DNA of 64,000 nucleotides from Pelotomaculum thermopropionicum SI (GTDB lineage: Bacteria > Bacillota > Desulfotomaculia > Desulfotomaculales > Pelotomaculaceae), in NCBI GenBank assembly GCA_000010565.1, contig AP009389.1:1240001-1304000 (forward strand), given 5' to 3'. Positions 10,043 to 15,825 of the stretch are shown here, one piece after another. The notes beneath the pieces are model-generated. The model was not told the DNA's origin. It saw only the letters and a list, made by a program, of their open reading frames with translations, and searched no databases. Both the position numbers and the translations under genes were made by a program. Position 1 is the first letter of the stretch. The number at the start of each line of letters is the position of its first letter.

Positions 10043-10844
10043 TTGACGGGCATTATGGAAGAGCTGAATACACCGTCCGGCAGGCCCCGGATCATTTCCG
10101 CCAGCCGGCGCACCGACATACCTGCATTTTACGGGGAATGGTTCATGCGGCGCATCAGGGAAGGGTGGGCCGTCAGCTTTAATCCGTTCAGCCGCCGGCC
10201 GTTCCGGGTGTCGCTTTTACACTCCGACGTAGCCGCCATCGTTTTCTGGTCAAAAAATTTTGGCCCGTTTTTGCCTCATTTGGCCGTGCTGGCCGGCCAG
10301 GGCTACAACATGGTTTTTTTATATACCATTACCGGGCTTCCCCGGCTGTTTAAGGCCGGGGTGCCGGATGCGGAACAGGCATTGCCGTTTTTAAGGCAAT
10401 TTCCCGGATGTTTTCGAGCAGGCATGTTCAGTGGCGCTATGATCCGATCCTGCTGACGAATATCACCGAGAGTATCATCTCTGGCGGTTTCGAATCCTGT
10501 GCCAGCACCTGGAGGGTTATACGGACAGGTGTTACACCAGTTTTGCTTGCCTCTACCCGAAGGTTCGGAGGCGGCTGGGGGCGCTGGAGCGGAAAGGGGT
10601 AATAATGTTAGACGTTCCGGAGGCGGAGCGGCTTGAACGAAATAGCCGCCGGTCACGGCATTGCGCTTTATAGCTGCTGTAACGACGACCTGGTGGGCGG
10701 TCTGGTAAAAAAGGCCAGTTGCGTGGACCGGGAATTCCTGGCCGGCCTGTTCGGCCTCAATCCGGGGCTTTACCGGCAAAATCCCACCCGGAGCCATGCG
10801 GGTGCTGTGAAAGCACAGTGAGTATTGTTGTCTTGCCAATATAA
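10043..10844 (+). pseudogene. DUF1848 protein, broken by several frameshifts
   Basis: The opening frame reads ISASRRTDIPAFYGEWFM and AAIVFWSKNFGPFLPHL, typical of DUF1848 proteins (function unclear; intact ones end in a Cys-rich segment). The homology then jumps frames: WRYDPILLTNITE near 10430, EGYTDRCYTSFACLYPKVRRRLGALE in another frame from about 10490, EIAAGHGIALYSCCNDDLVGGLVKKA from 10636, and a CGCCES remnant near 10800. At least three or four indels are needed and the usual C-terminus is missing, so it is not functional. It marks the start of the accessory island. Confidence 0.82.
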
Positions 10845-11003
10845 TCTCAACGCTTGACTTTATCGGAATTTAGAATAGCTATCCAGTCTAATTAGGGGTT
10901 AAAAGAAAAAACTAAAATGATTTATTTACTTTTAGGGCATCATCGCATCAAATGAAAAAGGTGTTTTTGCTTTCCAGCGCAGGTTCTTCCTGAAAATCCC
11001 AGG

Positions 11004-11010
11004 TAACTTA
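11004..11010. repeat. Target-site duplication, left copy
   Basis: TAACTTA lies directly before the left inverted repeat of the IS. The same seven bases follow the right end at 12652-12658. One or two bases at the junction could belong to either the repeat or the IS end. Confidence 0.8.
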
Positions 11011-11049
11011 GGGCTTGCTGAACAAGTTTTCCAATTTCACAAACTGCTC

Positions 11050-12531
11050 TTAGATAACCGCATACACAGTGTAATTTTGGTCCTTATAAGTCTTCAAGAT
11101 GGCGCATATAAAATGGCAAAAAAGAAGCCGGAGCCGGTGTTCCAAGTTCATTACCAGGAACTGCAGCGCAATGACGCTCTCTGCTGTCTCTTTGAGGCGT
11201 GCCATGATCCTGGCCAAGCCGTATCTGCGCTTGCATACGCCAAAGCCGCCTTCAACAGCGTTGCGTTCCCTCATGTCCTGGTGTGCGAATTGCTTCTCCC
11301 GTCTGCTATCAAGTGGCGGACGGCCCAGCGGCGGCCCGCTCAGCCTGATGCCATGTTTTCTGCAGAAAGAGAGGTTTTCTCTGGTGCGATATAACTGGTC
11401 GGCCAGGACTGCTTCCGGATAGTGACCGTACCGTTTCTTGTAATCTTCGACCGCCTGTTTTAAGCCAAGACTTTCGTTGAAGGAATCCCAGCTGAGGTGA
11501 TCGATGAAGGCGTATCCATCAACCATGCTAATGGCCACTTTAGCCCCAAACTCGGTCTCCGCCCTGGCCTTGCCCCTTACTATGGGACGCACGTGGGGCT
11601 GAGAGATGCTGACTATGCAATCATCGATACGGTGTGTCCTTGTCTGGTACATCTCCCGCTGCTGGGCGTAGAGAATACGAATGGTTTCCAGTTCTCTAGA
11701 CTGCCGGGCGCTCAAATTGCCATGGCCATCACACTTTAGAAGAAAATCGATTGTGCCCAGGTTTCTGCGAAGGTACCCCAGTTGTTTACCGATAGCCTTA
11801 CGAATAGCCTTCACATGCGGTTTTCTCTGCCTGGCGAACTTCAGGTAGTCTTTTCTCGCCCGCTTGCGGTAGGTACGGGGTTTCCTGGCCAGTCCGAGTT
11901 CCTGATTGTACAGGGTGTCGATCATCTTTTCCGTTTTTTCCCTGGCCTCATTGAGAAGGGAGAGGTCAGTGGGATACCGGATGTCTGCCGGGGCGCAGGT
12001 AGCGTCAAGCAACAGCTTGCCCTTGTTCACTTCCGGCTTCCATACTTCAAAATTACCGGAGCCTGATGGATTGCCTGGGTCTTTGTCTTTTGGGTCTTTG
12101 TCTTTTGGGTCTTTGTCTTTTTGTTCCTTGTGTTTTTCGCTCTGGCAGATCAACTCGTTAATTTTCTTTATGATCTTTTGATCCAACCGTTTCCGGAAAT
12201 GGACCATTAACGAGGGATCGAAGGGCGGTTCTATCTGGTATTTCTCCAGCCCGATGAAATACTGGAGATAGGGGTTTTCGGTGATCTGCTCCACCGTCTC
12301 CCTGTCGGTGAAACCGCATCGTTCTTTTATAATCAAGGCGCCCAGGGCCATACGCAAGGGCTTTGCCACTGTACCGGTATTGGACGGGAAAAGATCGGCA
12401 TATTCATTTTCGATCTGCTCCCAGGGTATTATCTTGGCCAGTTTCACCCAGCGGTTGTTGGCATCAAGTTTTCCTTCGAAGGGAAGTAGAAAGTCTTCAA
12501 TAACCATCTGACCAGTGGGACGCCGGTACAT
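11050..12531 (-). CDS. IS5-family DDE transposase
   Basis: This is a 493-aa transposase filling most of the IS. The N-terminal DUF772-like region includes PLRMALGALIIKERCGFTDR and the PPFDPSLMVHFRKRL segment. An Asp/Lys/Pro-rich linker (residues about 138-155) is encoded by three 15-bp tandem repeats. The catalytic core follows, with LLLDATCAPADIRYPTDL (candidate first Asp), EAVLADQLYRTRENL (second Asp) and ERNAVEGGFGVCKRRYGL (Glu). It is intact from start to stop. ATG lies about 109 bases inside the IS. Confidence 0.88.
   Translation of the reverse strand: MYRRPTGQMVIEDFLLPFEGKLDANNRWVKLAKIIPWEQIENEYADLFPSNTGTVAKPLRMALGALIIKERCGFTDRETVEQITENPYLQYFIGLEKYQIEPPFDPSLMVHFRKRLDQKIIKKINELICQSEKHKEQKDKDPKDKDPKDKDPGNPSGSGNFEVWKPEVNKGKLLLDATCAPADIRYPTDLSLLNEAREKTEKMIDTLYNQELGLARKPRTYRKRARKDYLKFARQRKPHVKAIRKAIGKQLGYLRRNLGTIDFLLKCDGHGNLSARQSRELETIRILYAQQREMYQTRTHRIDDCIVSISQPHVRPIVRGKARAETEFGAKVAISMVDGYAFIDHLSWDSFNESLGLKQAVEDYKKRYGHYPEAVLADQLYRTRENLSFCRKHGIRLSGPPLGRPPLDSRREKQFAHQDMRERNAVEGGFGVCKRRYGLARIMARLKETAESVIALQFLVMNLEHRLRLLFCHFICAILKTYKDQNYTVYAVI
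12077..12121 (-). repeat. Three 15-bp tandem repeats in the transposase gene
   Basis: GGGTCTTTGTCTTTT (+ strand) is repeated three times perfectly, encoding the KDKDP-type linker of the transposase. As a 15-bp unit it changes length without shifting frame, so copy number may vary between IS copies. Confidence 0.9.
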
Positions 12532-12651
12532 TTTTCCGCCTCCAAGTGCAAGCTTTTTACATGATTTAGCTCGTTTTCCTTGGAGAATAATTCGACAAAA
12601 AGGCCCTTAATCCTTTGGTACTACTGGAATTTATGGCTATTCAGCAAGCCC

Positions 12652-12658
12652 TAACTTA
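12652..12658. repeat. Target-site duplication, right copy
   Basis: TAACTTA directly follows the right inverted repeat of the IS and matches 11004-11010. Confidence 0.8.
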
Positions 12659-12749
12659 CCGGCTGATCTGAGAAAGGAAAGGAACTAGCGCTGGATGTGA
12701 CCGTAGTATAAGTGCTTCAACCATATATGAAAATTTCACTGTGGCTTGT

Positions 12750-12776
12750 TAAAGAAAAATGGTTAGTTGTACTAAC
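12750..12776 (-). terminator. Possible terminator of the acylation operon
   Basis: On the - strand, GTTAGT-ACA-ACTAAC is followed by CATTTTTCTTT. The 6-bp stem is short, but it sits directly at the stop codon of the last small gene of the operon. Confidence 0.45.
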
Positions 12777-12889
12777 TAAAAACCTCTATAAATAAAGTCT
12801 GAAAAATCTCCTATAGAGAACAGAATTATGGACAGAATTATAAAAAGCCAAATTATAGCCCGTAGTATATCTAAAAAAAGCCCCTTCAT
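12776..12889 (-). CDS. 37-aa DltX-like membrane microprotein
   Basis: This short ORF was found by reading past the end of the MBOAT gene. ATG at 12889 (reading down) is preceded by GGAGGG five bases upstream, and the frame runs to TAG at 12776-12778. The peptide begins MKGLFLDILRA, has one hydrophobic helix (about residues 8-27) and ends DFSDFIYRGF. Its last six residues fit FxYxxF, the C-terminal pattern of DltX. There the tyrosine is reported to carry the D-alanyl group between the MBOAT protein DltB and the SGNH protein DltD. Here the neighbours are exactly an MBOAT and an SGNH protein. The function (acyl carrier for envelope modification) is inferred from motif and context; the chemistry is unproven. 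Confidence 0.78.
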   Translation of the reverse strand: MKGLFLDILRAIIWLFIILSIILFSIGDFSDFIYRGF

Positions 12890-12903
12890 TTTTTCCCTCC
12901 AAT

Positions 12904-14100
12904 TCAATTCAAATGAAAAACTACCCTCATAATATGTATACTCTGATGAACACTTGTTTCAAAGAATATCCATCCAAAAGCTGTAAAGTTAAAAGTAAGG
13001 GCAATACTGATGACTGTTGCTATTCTAGAATTCTTAAAACTATCACTCAAGTGTATAGCTATAAAAAGGTTGTATAGACGGAGGATAATTAATCCGACAG
13101 CATGGTATAGTCCCCAGACAATAAAGTGAAAGGCCGCGCCGTGCCATATACCTGTAGCTATCATAACAATTAATGTATTAATTATTGTTCTGCCCAAAGT
13201 TCCTCTGCTTCCACCCAGGGGGATAAACAAGTAATCCCTGAACCAACTGGTCAGCGACATATGCCAACTCTTCCAGAAAAGAGATATGTTACGTTTTAGA
13301 TAAGGGGCATTAAAATTTTCCATTATACGATATCCAAAGAGCCGTGCTGTACCAATGGCTATATCGGAATATCCGGAGAAATCAAAGTAGATTTTAAAAG
13401 TAAAAGCATAAATAGCAATAAGGTAACTTAAACCATCCAGCTCTGGGTTATTCAATCCTCTAGCGAAGAGTGCGAGAGAGTCAGCAATAACAACCTTTTT
13501 AAAAAGACCTAACATTATTCTTGAAATACCATAATTTAAGTATTTCCACTTAAAGCCATTTATGTTTTGATGCTGTTGTTCAAAGCGATCATAACGTTCA
13601 ATAGGGCCAGCTACAACGATAGGGAAAAAAAAGGTATAAGTAAGAAATTCCAAATAGCCTCTATGCTTAATATTTCCTCTTTTGACCTCAATCAAATAAT
13701 GAATAAAACGAAAAGTAAAAAAAGAAAGTCCAATTGGGATTTTTTGCACAGGATTCTCAAAAACAAAATGAATATTTATTGACAAATTAACATATTTAAT
13801 TACCTGAATAAAAAAAAGAAGGTATTTATAGTACACTAAAAATCCTAGTGTGCCTAGAATTGTTAAAACAAAAATAGTATTTCTGCATATTGGTTTTGCC
13901 GATATAATAAGCTCCCCGGCAAAATAGACCACGCTTGATATTATGAGGATCAGCATTGTATGGGTAGGAAAAAGATAAAGAAGTAATCCAAAGCTAAAAA
14001 TTAAAAAAAGCCTGCTTCGGATATGAGTTGGAACAATAAACCAATATATAATAAATAGTATAGTAACAAGTAAAAAATAGGGAAAGGCATTCAAAAGCAT
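12904..14100 (-). CDS. MBOAT O-acyltransferase (AlgI/DltB type)
   Basis: This 398-aa polytopic membrane protein of the MBOAT family probably moves an acyl group from the cytoplasm across the membrane for transfer to an envelope polymer. Family features in order: FFFPIVVAGPIERYDRF (residues about 155-172), FYFDFSGYSDIAIG, FWKSWHMSLTSWFRDYLFIP, and IATGIWHGAAFHFIVWGLYH with the conserved active-site His in WHGA. ATG at 14100 is five bases after the SGNH gene stop, with GAGG upstream. The small FIYRGF peptide follows after 14 bases. The region is AT-rich compared with its surroundings, suggesting transfer. It could be an alginate-acetylase-type or DltB-type enzyme; the donor is unknown. Confidence 0.9.
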   Translation of the reverse strand: MLLNAFPYFLLVTILFIIYWFIVPTHIRSRLFLIFSFGLLLYLFPTHTMLILIISSVVYFAGELIISAKPICRNTIFVLTILGTLGFLVYYKYLLFFIQVIKYVNLSINIHFVFENPVQKIPIGLSFFTFRFIHYLIEVKRGNIKHRGYLEFLTYTFFFPIVVAGPIERYDRFEQQHQNINGFKWKYLNYGISRIMLGLFKKVVIADSLALFARGLNNPELDGLSYLIAIYAFTFKIYFDFSGYSDIAIGTARLFGYRIMENFNAPYLKRNISLFWKSWHMSLTSWFRDYLFIPLGGSRGTLGRTIINTLIVMIATGIWHGAAFHFIVWGLYHAVGLIILRLYNLFIAIHLSDSFKNSRIATVISIALTFNFTAFGWIFFETSVHQSIHIMRVVFHLN

Positions 14101-14105
14101 TGATG

Positions 14106-15221
14106 TTACCTCTTTATATACCCTTTTTCAATTAAATCATGTGATATACTTGAAGCAAGAATCTTGTTTCCCTCAGGAAGCAGGTGCACTGTATCAGAAA
14201 AATAGTCAAAAGGAATTGCACTATCATAATTTAATACTGGAATAGTCTTATTTTTAGCTTCATTTATAATTATTGATAGGTTGTTTATGTAATTTGGCTT
14301 GTCAATCATATCGTAACATTCAAGTAATTCATGATTTCTTGGTGTGATAAAGAACACTGCTTGAATTTCCTTATCTTTTATATAGTCTAGAAGCATCTTG
14401 TAAAATAACCATTGCTTATTACTATTATTTAAGTAAAAAGAACCAACTCTTCCTTTTGTTGGGTCAAGCTTTCCTTCCCATTTTTTTTCTTTCCAGGGAG
14501 CCCTCATTTCAAGGATTTCTGGCAATTTATTCTCTGAAAAGGGAAGTAATAAACTAGGATCTCTTTTGGCATCTTGAAGTTTCTCACGTAGAGGTTTTCC
14601 AAAAAGCCAATAATTAAGCAATATCCTTTGGTCATATACCTTCCAATGATTTAAAATGTTTCTAGAAAGCCATTTTTCTATAGGAGAAATGGTTGATACT
14701 AATGGATCGAGTCCCAATAAATGTAATTGTTCACTACTTAAATTGTTATTAAATTCTAATAGTGATAGATGCTCTAAAGGCTTTGTTCTGCTAAACCATC
14801 CTAGGTTAATATCATATATAAAAAGGTCTACATGAATACTTTCAAGGGCGTTTAATATGAAATATACTTCCGCAGGTGCTGCTCCCGCTATCCCAATGTT
14901 GAAAACCCTTATATTTTTATCAGGAAGAAGTTCATTCAATTCCTTAGATATATATGCCGGAAGCGTATCGCAAGTGTATTTTACTGCGTCACCGTGGACT
15001 ACTGAATCACCTAAAACCACGATTTTATAGCCATTACTTTTTTCGATCTGATTAATCCATAATTTCAAAGTTGAGTAATCATAAGAAGGAAGTCGTTGAC
15101 ATTCTGGATGATTAAATTTATTTGAAACAATAATACAAAATAAAATATCAACTAAACAAAGACCTAAAATTATAAAAACCATAACTCTTCTATTTACTGT
15201 AAAAATATCTTTTGATTTCAT
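14106..15221 (-). CDS. Membrane-anchored SGNH hydrolase-like protein (DltD/AlgX-like)
   Basis: This 371-aa protein has one N-terminal helix (residues about 13-31) and an extracytoplasmic SGNH domain. The nucleophile motif is VVLGDSVVHGD, an AGAAPAEVY block may include the oxyanion Asn/Gly region, and DTVHLLPEGNKIL near the C-terminus carries the Asp-x-x-His pair. Such proteins act with an MBOAT partner and complete acyl transfer to a glycan or teichoic acid. ATG at 15221 has AAGGAGA nine bases upstream. It is the first gene of a three-gene operon. A closer family cannot be assigned by eye. Confidence 0.8.
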   Translation of the reverse strand: MKSKDIFTVNRRVMVFIILGLCLVDILFCIIVSNKFNHPECQRLPSYDYSTLKLWINQIEKSNGYKIVVLGDSVVHGDAVKYTCDTLPAYISKELNELLPDKNIRVFNIGIAGAAPAEVYFILNALESIHVDLFIYDINLGWFSRTKPLEHLSLLEFNNNLSSEQLHLLGLDPLVSTISPIEKWLSRNILNHWKVYDQRILLNYWLFGKPLREKLQDAKRDPSLLLPFSENKLPEILEMRAPWKEKKWEGKLDPTKGRVGSFYLNNSNKQWLFYKMLLDYIKDKEIQAVFFITPRNHELLECYDMIDKPNYINNLSIIINEAKNKTIPVLNYDSAIPFDYFSDTVHLLPEGNKILASSISHDLIEKGYIKR

Positions 15222-15401: not shown

Positions 15402-15825
15402 AGCTATTTCCCTCCACCCGTCAAAGCGGTGTAAATTCCCAAGAAAAAACGAAGGGAAACGCATACTCGGAGTGTCTACTGTGGCGGACCGGGTGGCGCA
15501 GATGGTCGTTAAAATCTACTTTGAGCCGCAAGTGGAACCACACTTTCACCCGGATTCCTACGGATACCGGCTGGAAAAGTCGGCCACCGATACACTTACC
15601 GTTACCCGGCAGTGCTGCTGGAGGTACGACTGGGTATTGGAATTCGATATCAAGGGGCTGTTTGATAACATCGATCACGAACTGTTGATGAAGGCGGTCC
15701 GTAAAAACACCGACAGTCCATGAGTCATTCTCTACATCCAGAGATGTCTCAAGGCACCTTTCAGATGCCGGATGGTACTGTAAAAGAGCGGACGAAAGGT
15801 ACCCCGCAGGGAGGCTTATGCTAAG
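15402..15825 (+). pseudogene. Group II intron reverse transcriptase fragment
   Basis: This is a remnant of an LtrA-type reverse transcriptase/maturase. Recognisable blocks are PPPVKAV (15412 onward), TVADRVAQMVVKIYFEP and HPDSYGYR, FDIKGLFDNIDHELLMKAV, then VILYIQRCLKAPF and, in another frame, QMPDGTVKERTKGTPQGG. An in-frame stop, an indel near 15450-15465, a stop at 15721 and another indel near 15760 break it. The N-terminus, the YADD block and the maturase domain are missing. It ends where a recombinase-type element begins. Confidence 0.85.

Follow-up and report, generated by a model that had tools for sequence, protein, structure and literature searches.

What is the 37-codon reading frame that follows an MBOAT gene in this DNA: an acyl-carrying microprotein of the DltX kind, and if so, a member of the Dlt system or of another? 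The window, meaning the whole stretch of 64,000 nucleotides analysed here, is part of a single-contig genome of 3,025,375 bases. Current knowledge assigns a microprotein to Dlt alone, the other MBOAT/SGNH pathways having neither carrier nor microprotein and bearing a fused hexapeptide (PMC12148441, 2025). An acyl-tyrosine mechanism is shown for PatA/PatB and reviewed for Dlt in the same paper.

A conserved microprotein gene

The genes follow one another on the minus strand in the order SGNH (15221..14106), MBOAT (14100..12904), microprotein. The features of the microprotein gene are the following.

12776..12889, minus strand: gene of the 37-aa microprotein, with a hydrophobic helix at about residues 8-26 and C-terminal FIYRGF (translation, conservation, Ka/Ks)
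12779..12796, minus strand: codons of the terminal hexapeptide F32-I33-Y34-R35-G36-F37
12788-12790, minus strand: codon of Tyr34, the proposed acyl acceptor
12895..12900, minus strand: Shine-Dalgarno sequence GGAGGG, 5 nt 5' of the microprotein ATG (sequence)

The translation, MKGLFLDILRAIIWLFIILSIILFSIGDFSDFIYRGF, is read from 12889 to 12776 and comprises 37 codons followed by TAG. The preliminary description had proposed a 37-codon frame preceded by GGAGGG five bases before its ATG and lying 14 bases past the MBOAT gene in the same direction; coordinates bear this out, the MBOAT stop ending at 12904 and the ATG starting at 12889, and add the minus strand, which had not been given. The single hydrophobic helix, the fit of the last six residues to FxYxxF and the position of the tiny frame beside an MBOAT/SGNH pair (12904-14100 and 14106-15221, on its own strand) were also correctly described. 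The frame differs from that of the MBOAT. A plus-strand reading of 12776-12889 was rejected, as it is interrupted by stops throughout, and a promoter and terminator scan of the three-gene operon returned no more signals than shuffled sequences.

Only one of the 801 window reading frames of at least 20 aa, the microprotein itself, ends in FxYxxF, against 0.08 expected from tail residue frequencies. This rarity is weak evidence alone; conservation at about 30 loci and purifying selection establish the reading frame as real. MBOAT relatives were fetched from genome collections, and the microprotein profile was then searched alone, which yielded 18 strong loci in 398 genomes of the same phylum and nine in 399 genomes of the class of genome G027. 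At all 27 loci (797 genomes, two large groups) an MBOAT and an SGNH gene adjoin the microprotein, and the MBOATs are short. The order is mostly SGNH-MBOAT-microprotein, and MBOAT-microprotein-SGNH in three loci. FIYxxF stands exactly at the end of all 30 distinct microproteins, with F, I, Y and the last F invariant, and Ka/Ks is about 0-0.3 in 16 of 17 gene pairs, where synonymous changes dominate. The microprotein is thus a real gene under selection, probably missed in annotation, and the expectation that the frame and its terminal motif would be conserved beside orthologous MBOAT/SGNH pairs is confirmed.

Several matches were discarded. Among the phylum matches, those weaker than about E 0.001 and with large open frames proved to be ordinary membrane helices or tails of fused MBOATs, those in genomes G067 and G684 are chance matches with no MBOAT adjoining, and a PDB search with the microprotein profile returned only chance matches to cytochrome b.

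The MBOAT and SGNH partners

The features of the two partner genes are the following.

12904..14100, minus strand: MBOAT, 398 aa, ending FHLN, without fused hexapeptide (PF03062, 82 bits)
13261..13263, minus strand: codon of His280, equivalent to DltB His289 and invariant across all MBOAT groups
13141..13143, minus strand: codon of His320 (WHG), equivalent to catalytic DltB His336, invariant
13210..13215, minus strand: codons of Gly296-Gly297 (PLGG), at the DltC-contact residues Val305/Ile306 of DltB (alignment)
14106..15221, minus strand: SGNH transferase, 371 aa, with an N-terminal membrane helix, Ser73 (GDS), Asp343 and His346

The histidine pair of DltB (His289/His336) is thus present in the MBOAT as His280/His320. 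An AF2 model of the protein (pLDDT 89) has DltB as its closest solved structure (Z 33.8), and its score against the DltB profile TIGR04091 is 183 bits, below the curated cut-off of 375. The SGNH protein, whose Ser73, Asp343 and His346 are invariant, has the DltD fold with its serine and Asp-x-x-His: DltD structures match its AF2 model (pLDDT 86) best (Z 17.0, Foldseek ranks 1-11). Its own score against DltD PF04914 is 17.5 bits, below the gathering score of 22.7, and the orthologues at L006 and L063 pass this profile with 26-32 bits.

The 31 microprotein-bearing MBOATs form one clade in the MBOAT tree (96/94) and the fused MBOATs another (100/98), the two joining at 95/95; DltB lies far apart (100/100), and an earlier version of the tree agrees on the separate placement. 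When the microprotein-bearing MBOATs were held with Dlt, the AU test gave a borderline p of 0.05, so that the sister relation of the first two clades is itself borderline and the shuttle may have been split off or fused in either order.

DltC docks on DltB through Met302, Val305, Ile306, Met309, Lys312 and Arg317 (PMC11035591). Aligned with the solved DltB, the window MBOAT has I293, G296 and G297 at the sites of Met302, Val305 and Ile306. The Gly-Gly pair is invariant in the microprotein class, which therefore does not have the hydrophobic docking residues of DltB at these sites; PLGG is common to this class and nearly all fused MBOATs.

Separate and fused forms of the motif

Length and architecture go together in these enzymes. 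Beside short MBOATs (mostly 380-430 aa, up to 451) lies a reading frame of 34-44 aa that ends FIYxxF, and long ones (at least 458 aa) carry FxYxxF at their own C terminus, where the window MBOAT has FHLN instead of a hexapeptide. None of the 14 MBOATs with a fused FxYxxF has a separate peptide, and those without it have one, with a single carrier-type exception at L011. The microprotein profile aligns over its full length with the C-terminal helix and hexapeptide of the fused MBOATs (34 columns, 97%, E 6e-11). Control windows over the rest of the fused MBOATs reach about 2% or less, and one overlapping the tail 22%; against DltX the profile aligns over 14 columns only (40%). The invariant FIYxxF, selection, partnership and the complementarity of fused and separate forms together support well a DltX-like shuttle role.

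The genome of the window holds a second MBOAT with a fused hexapeptide, ending SEFLYFQF (G000:C1:1118527-1119648, L002), which places both architectures in one cell. At the exceptional locus (L011:492-5426, Omnitrophota), a separate acyl carrier protein comes after the MBOAT, an SGNH-TPR protein lies upstream, and a 53-aa DUF5989 peptide ends FIYAGI. DUF5989 may be another family of acyl-shuttle microproteins; one microprotein of the window class touches it at E 0.03.

Three Bacteroidota loci (L013:953-4955, L014:950-4981, L152:4326-8308) encode an AMP-ligase, an SGNH-like protein, a short MBOAT and a microprotein of 45-46 aa with the tail F.Y.GW. In two of them, L013 and L014, the AMP-ligase has a C-terminal carrier domain, with weak scores. 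These loci appear to be a carrier system resembling Dlt, present in Gram-negatives and equipped with its own shuttle.

Relation to Dlt and the acyl donor

As a short membrane protein with one helix and a C-terminal FxYxxF, the microprotein has the outward form of DltX; true DltX proteins, fetched as a yardstick, end FIYN[DEQ]F or YIYNEF. The operon might accordingly be a diverged Dlt-type system, in which the MBOAT would use a phosphopantetheine carrier, a housekeeping ACP, to transfer an aminoacyl or acyl group, and the microprotein would be DltX by descent. The nearest solved structures of both partners, DltB and DltD, agree with this, as do the five of 13 microproteins that match PF12459 (DltX) below cut-off (best E 0.002) and the four of 16 genomes in which the microproteins are the top matches of that profile. 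The carrier genes tell against it: DltA exceeds its cut-off in none of the 16 genomes, and DltC in one of 38 holding the microprotein or Bacteroidota system (the 16 and 22 more, with three yardstick genomes left out), positive controls being detected. In the single positive genome, G524, the true DltC lies about 2 Mb from the microprotein operon. The loss of the DltC-contact residues, the separation of the MBOAT clade from DltB and the shortness of the DltX profile alignment point the same way, and we regard a diverged Dlt-type system as unlikely.

Identity of the microprotein with true DltX was rejected on the missing DltA and DltC, the unreached cut-offs, the MBOAT tree and the lost docking residues. 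The window microprotein has no match to PF12459 at E 1 (gathering score 25 bits), and no protein in the 16 genomes passes the cut-off of this profile. The proposal of a DltX-like acyl carrier in the preliminary description is supported as to the role, which conservation makes probable. Identity as DltX is contradicted by an MBOAT outside the DltB clade, by the missing DltA and DltC, and by a peptide that is closer to the C-terminal helix of fused PatA-type MBOATs than to DltX.

The microprotein could instead help to assemble or regulate the MBOAT-SGNH complex, as a subunit that itself carries no acyl group. A bridging role is conceivable, since DltX is described as binding both DltB and DltD (PMC12148441); yet the strict retention of F-I-Y-x-x-F at the C terminus in 30 of 30 microproteins and the mutual exclusion of separate peptide and fused hexapeptide make a subunit of this kind highly improbable. 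That the frame is the broken-off C-terminal piece of a once-fused MBOAT, a recent split or pseudogene, can be dismissed: it is out of frame with the MBOAT and adjoined by an IS element, but the split arrangement, its own start and purifying selection recur across two large genome groups, and the MBOATs form an old, monophyletic clade.

Proposed mechanism

Very probably, then, the three genes encode a machine of the acyl-CoA type that acylates a cell-envelope polymer, with the separate microprotein as its acyl-tyrosine shuttle. PatA uses acetyl-CoA (PMC12148441); together with the missing carrier genes, the lost docking residues and the PLGG shared with fused MBOATs, this makes acyl-CoA the better candidate for the donor. 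In the scheme below, we infer the acylation of the tyrosine, the acyl-CoA donor, the topology and the identity of the polymer.

The MBOAT would accept an acyl group from a donor in the cytoplasm; the group is probably acetyl and the donor most likely acyl-CoA, as no dedicated carrier is encoded. Its His320 and His280 would transfer the group to Tyr34 in the FIYRGF of the microprotein, whose tail would face the outside. The microproteins have one helix; their N-terminal parts are neutral or carry a slight positive charge and most of their tails are neutral or acidic, a pattern that by the positive-inside rule suggests an N-in, C-out orientation. The acylated tail would then swing to the SGNH protein and hand the group to Ser73 of that protein, which would esterify an outer polymer. 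The microprotein may be the detached C-terminal shuttle helix of PatA/AlgI-type MBOATs, or may represent the unfused state ancestral to the fused form.

Genomic surroundings and the polymer

The operon has 32% GC against 52% for the window, of which it is the lowest stretch, and is flanked by mobile elements.

11002-12660: IS5-family element directly downstream of the microprotein; its 21-nt terminal inverted repeats lie at 11002-11022 and 12640-12660
15424-15723: reverse-transcriptase remnant just upstream of the operon (PF00078, 43 bits), likely a decayed group II intron or retroelement

The low GC content and these flanks suggest that the operon was probably acquired, and its composition means that expression in this host is not assured. 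Nearby, a DUF1848 reading frame (10043-10456) of 137 aa stops at half the length of its 262-position profile and is possibly a frameshifted gene.

Neighbouring genes hint at the polymer in relatives only, the window locus having no neighbour of the csaB or tagA type. In seven loci (L149, L150, L154, L156, L157, L158, L159) csaB (polysaccharide pyruvyl transferase, PF04230) lies no more than a few kb from the microprotein operon, and most of these also have tagA (PF03808). In Bacillus anthracis, CsaB pyruvylates the secondary cell-wall polysaccharide and PatA/PatB pairs O-acetylate it (PMC7759979). By analogy, the polymer of the csaB-bearing relatives may reasonably be guessed to be a pyruvylated secondary cell-wall polysaccharide.

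Comparison with known systems

A microprotein without a carrier makes the clade a clear counter-example to the statement that Dlt alone has a microprotein. The microprotein of this clade would work like DltX yet lies outside the DltX family as defined, its novelty being judged against the open-access literature. It probably constitutes a third architecture, an acyl-CoA-dependent MBOAT-SGNH system with a stand-alone microprotein shuttle, in a clade apart from Dlt and sometimes in the same genome as Dlt. Shuttle and carrier protein thereby become separable, independent traits. The clade would also supply PatA-type chemistry in two natural pieces, so that the shuttle could be mutated or added as a peptide, and it contributes 30 or more small genes of the sort that annotation readily overlooks.

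With DltX, DltB and DltD of teichoic-acid D-alanylation the system has in common a short membrane protein that has a single helix and the ending FxYxxF, and whose gene accompanies those of a DltB-fold MBOAT and a DltD-fold SGNH protein. It differs in gene order, SGNH-MBOAT-microprotein against the dltX-A-B-C-D found in most of the true Dlt operons fetched as a yardstick, in having no DltA or DltC, in not reaching the PF12459 and TIGR04091 cut-offs, in the lost docking residues and in its separate MBOAT clade. The Bacteroidota loci likewise combine a short MBOAT with a separate microprotein, there with an F.Y..W tail, but have a neighbouring AMP-ligase and an MBOAT in another clade. From the PatA/PatB type, with its hexapeptide fused to the MBOAT (PMC12148441), the system departs in carrying the hexapeptide on a separate protein of 34-44 aa, in its shorter MBOAT (mostly 380-430 aa against at least 458) and in an SGNH fold nearest to DltD. 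It agrees with that type in being carrier-free, in PLGG and other positions common with fused MBOATs and not with DltB, in a microprotein that resembles the fused C-terminal helix over its full length, and in the sister position of the MBOAT clades.
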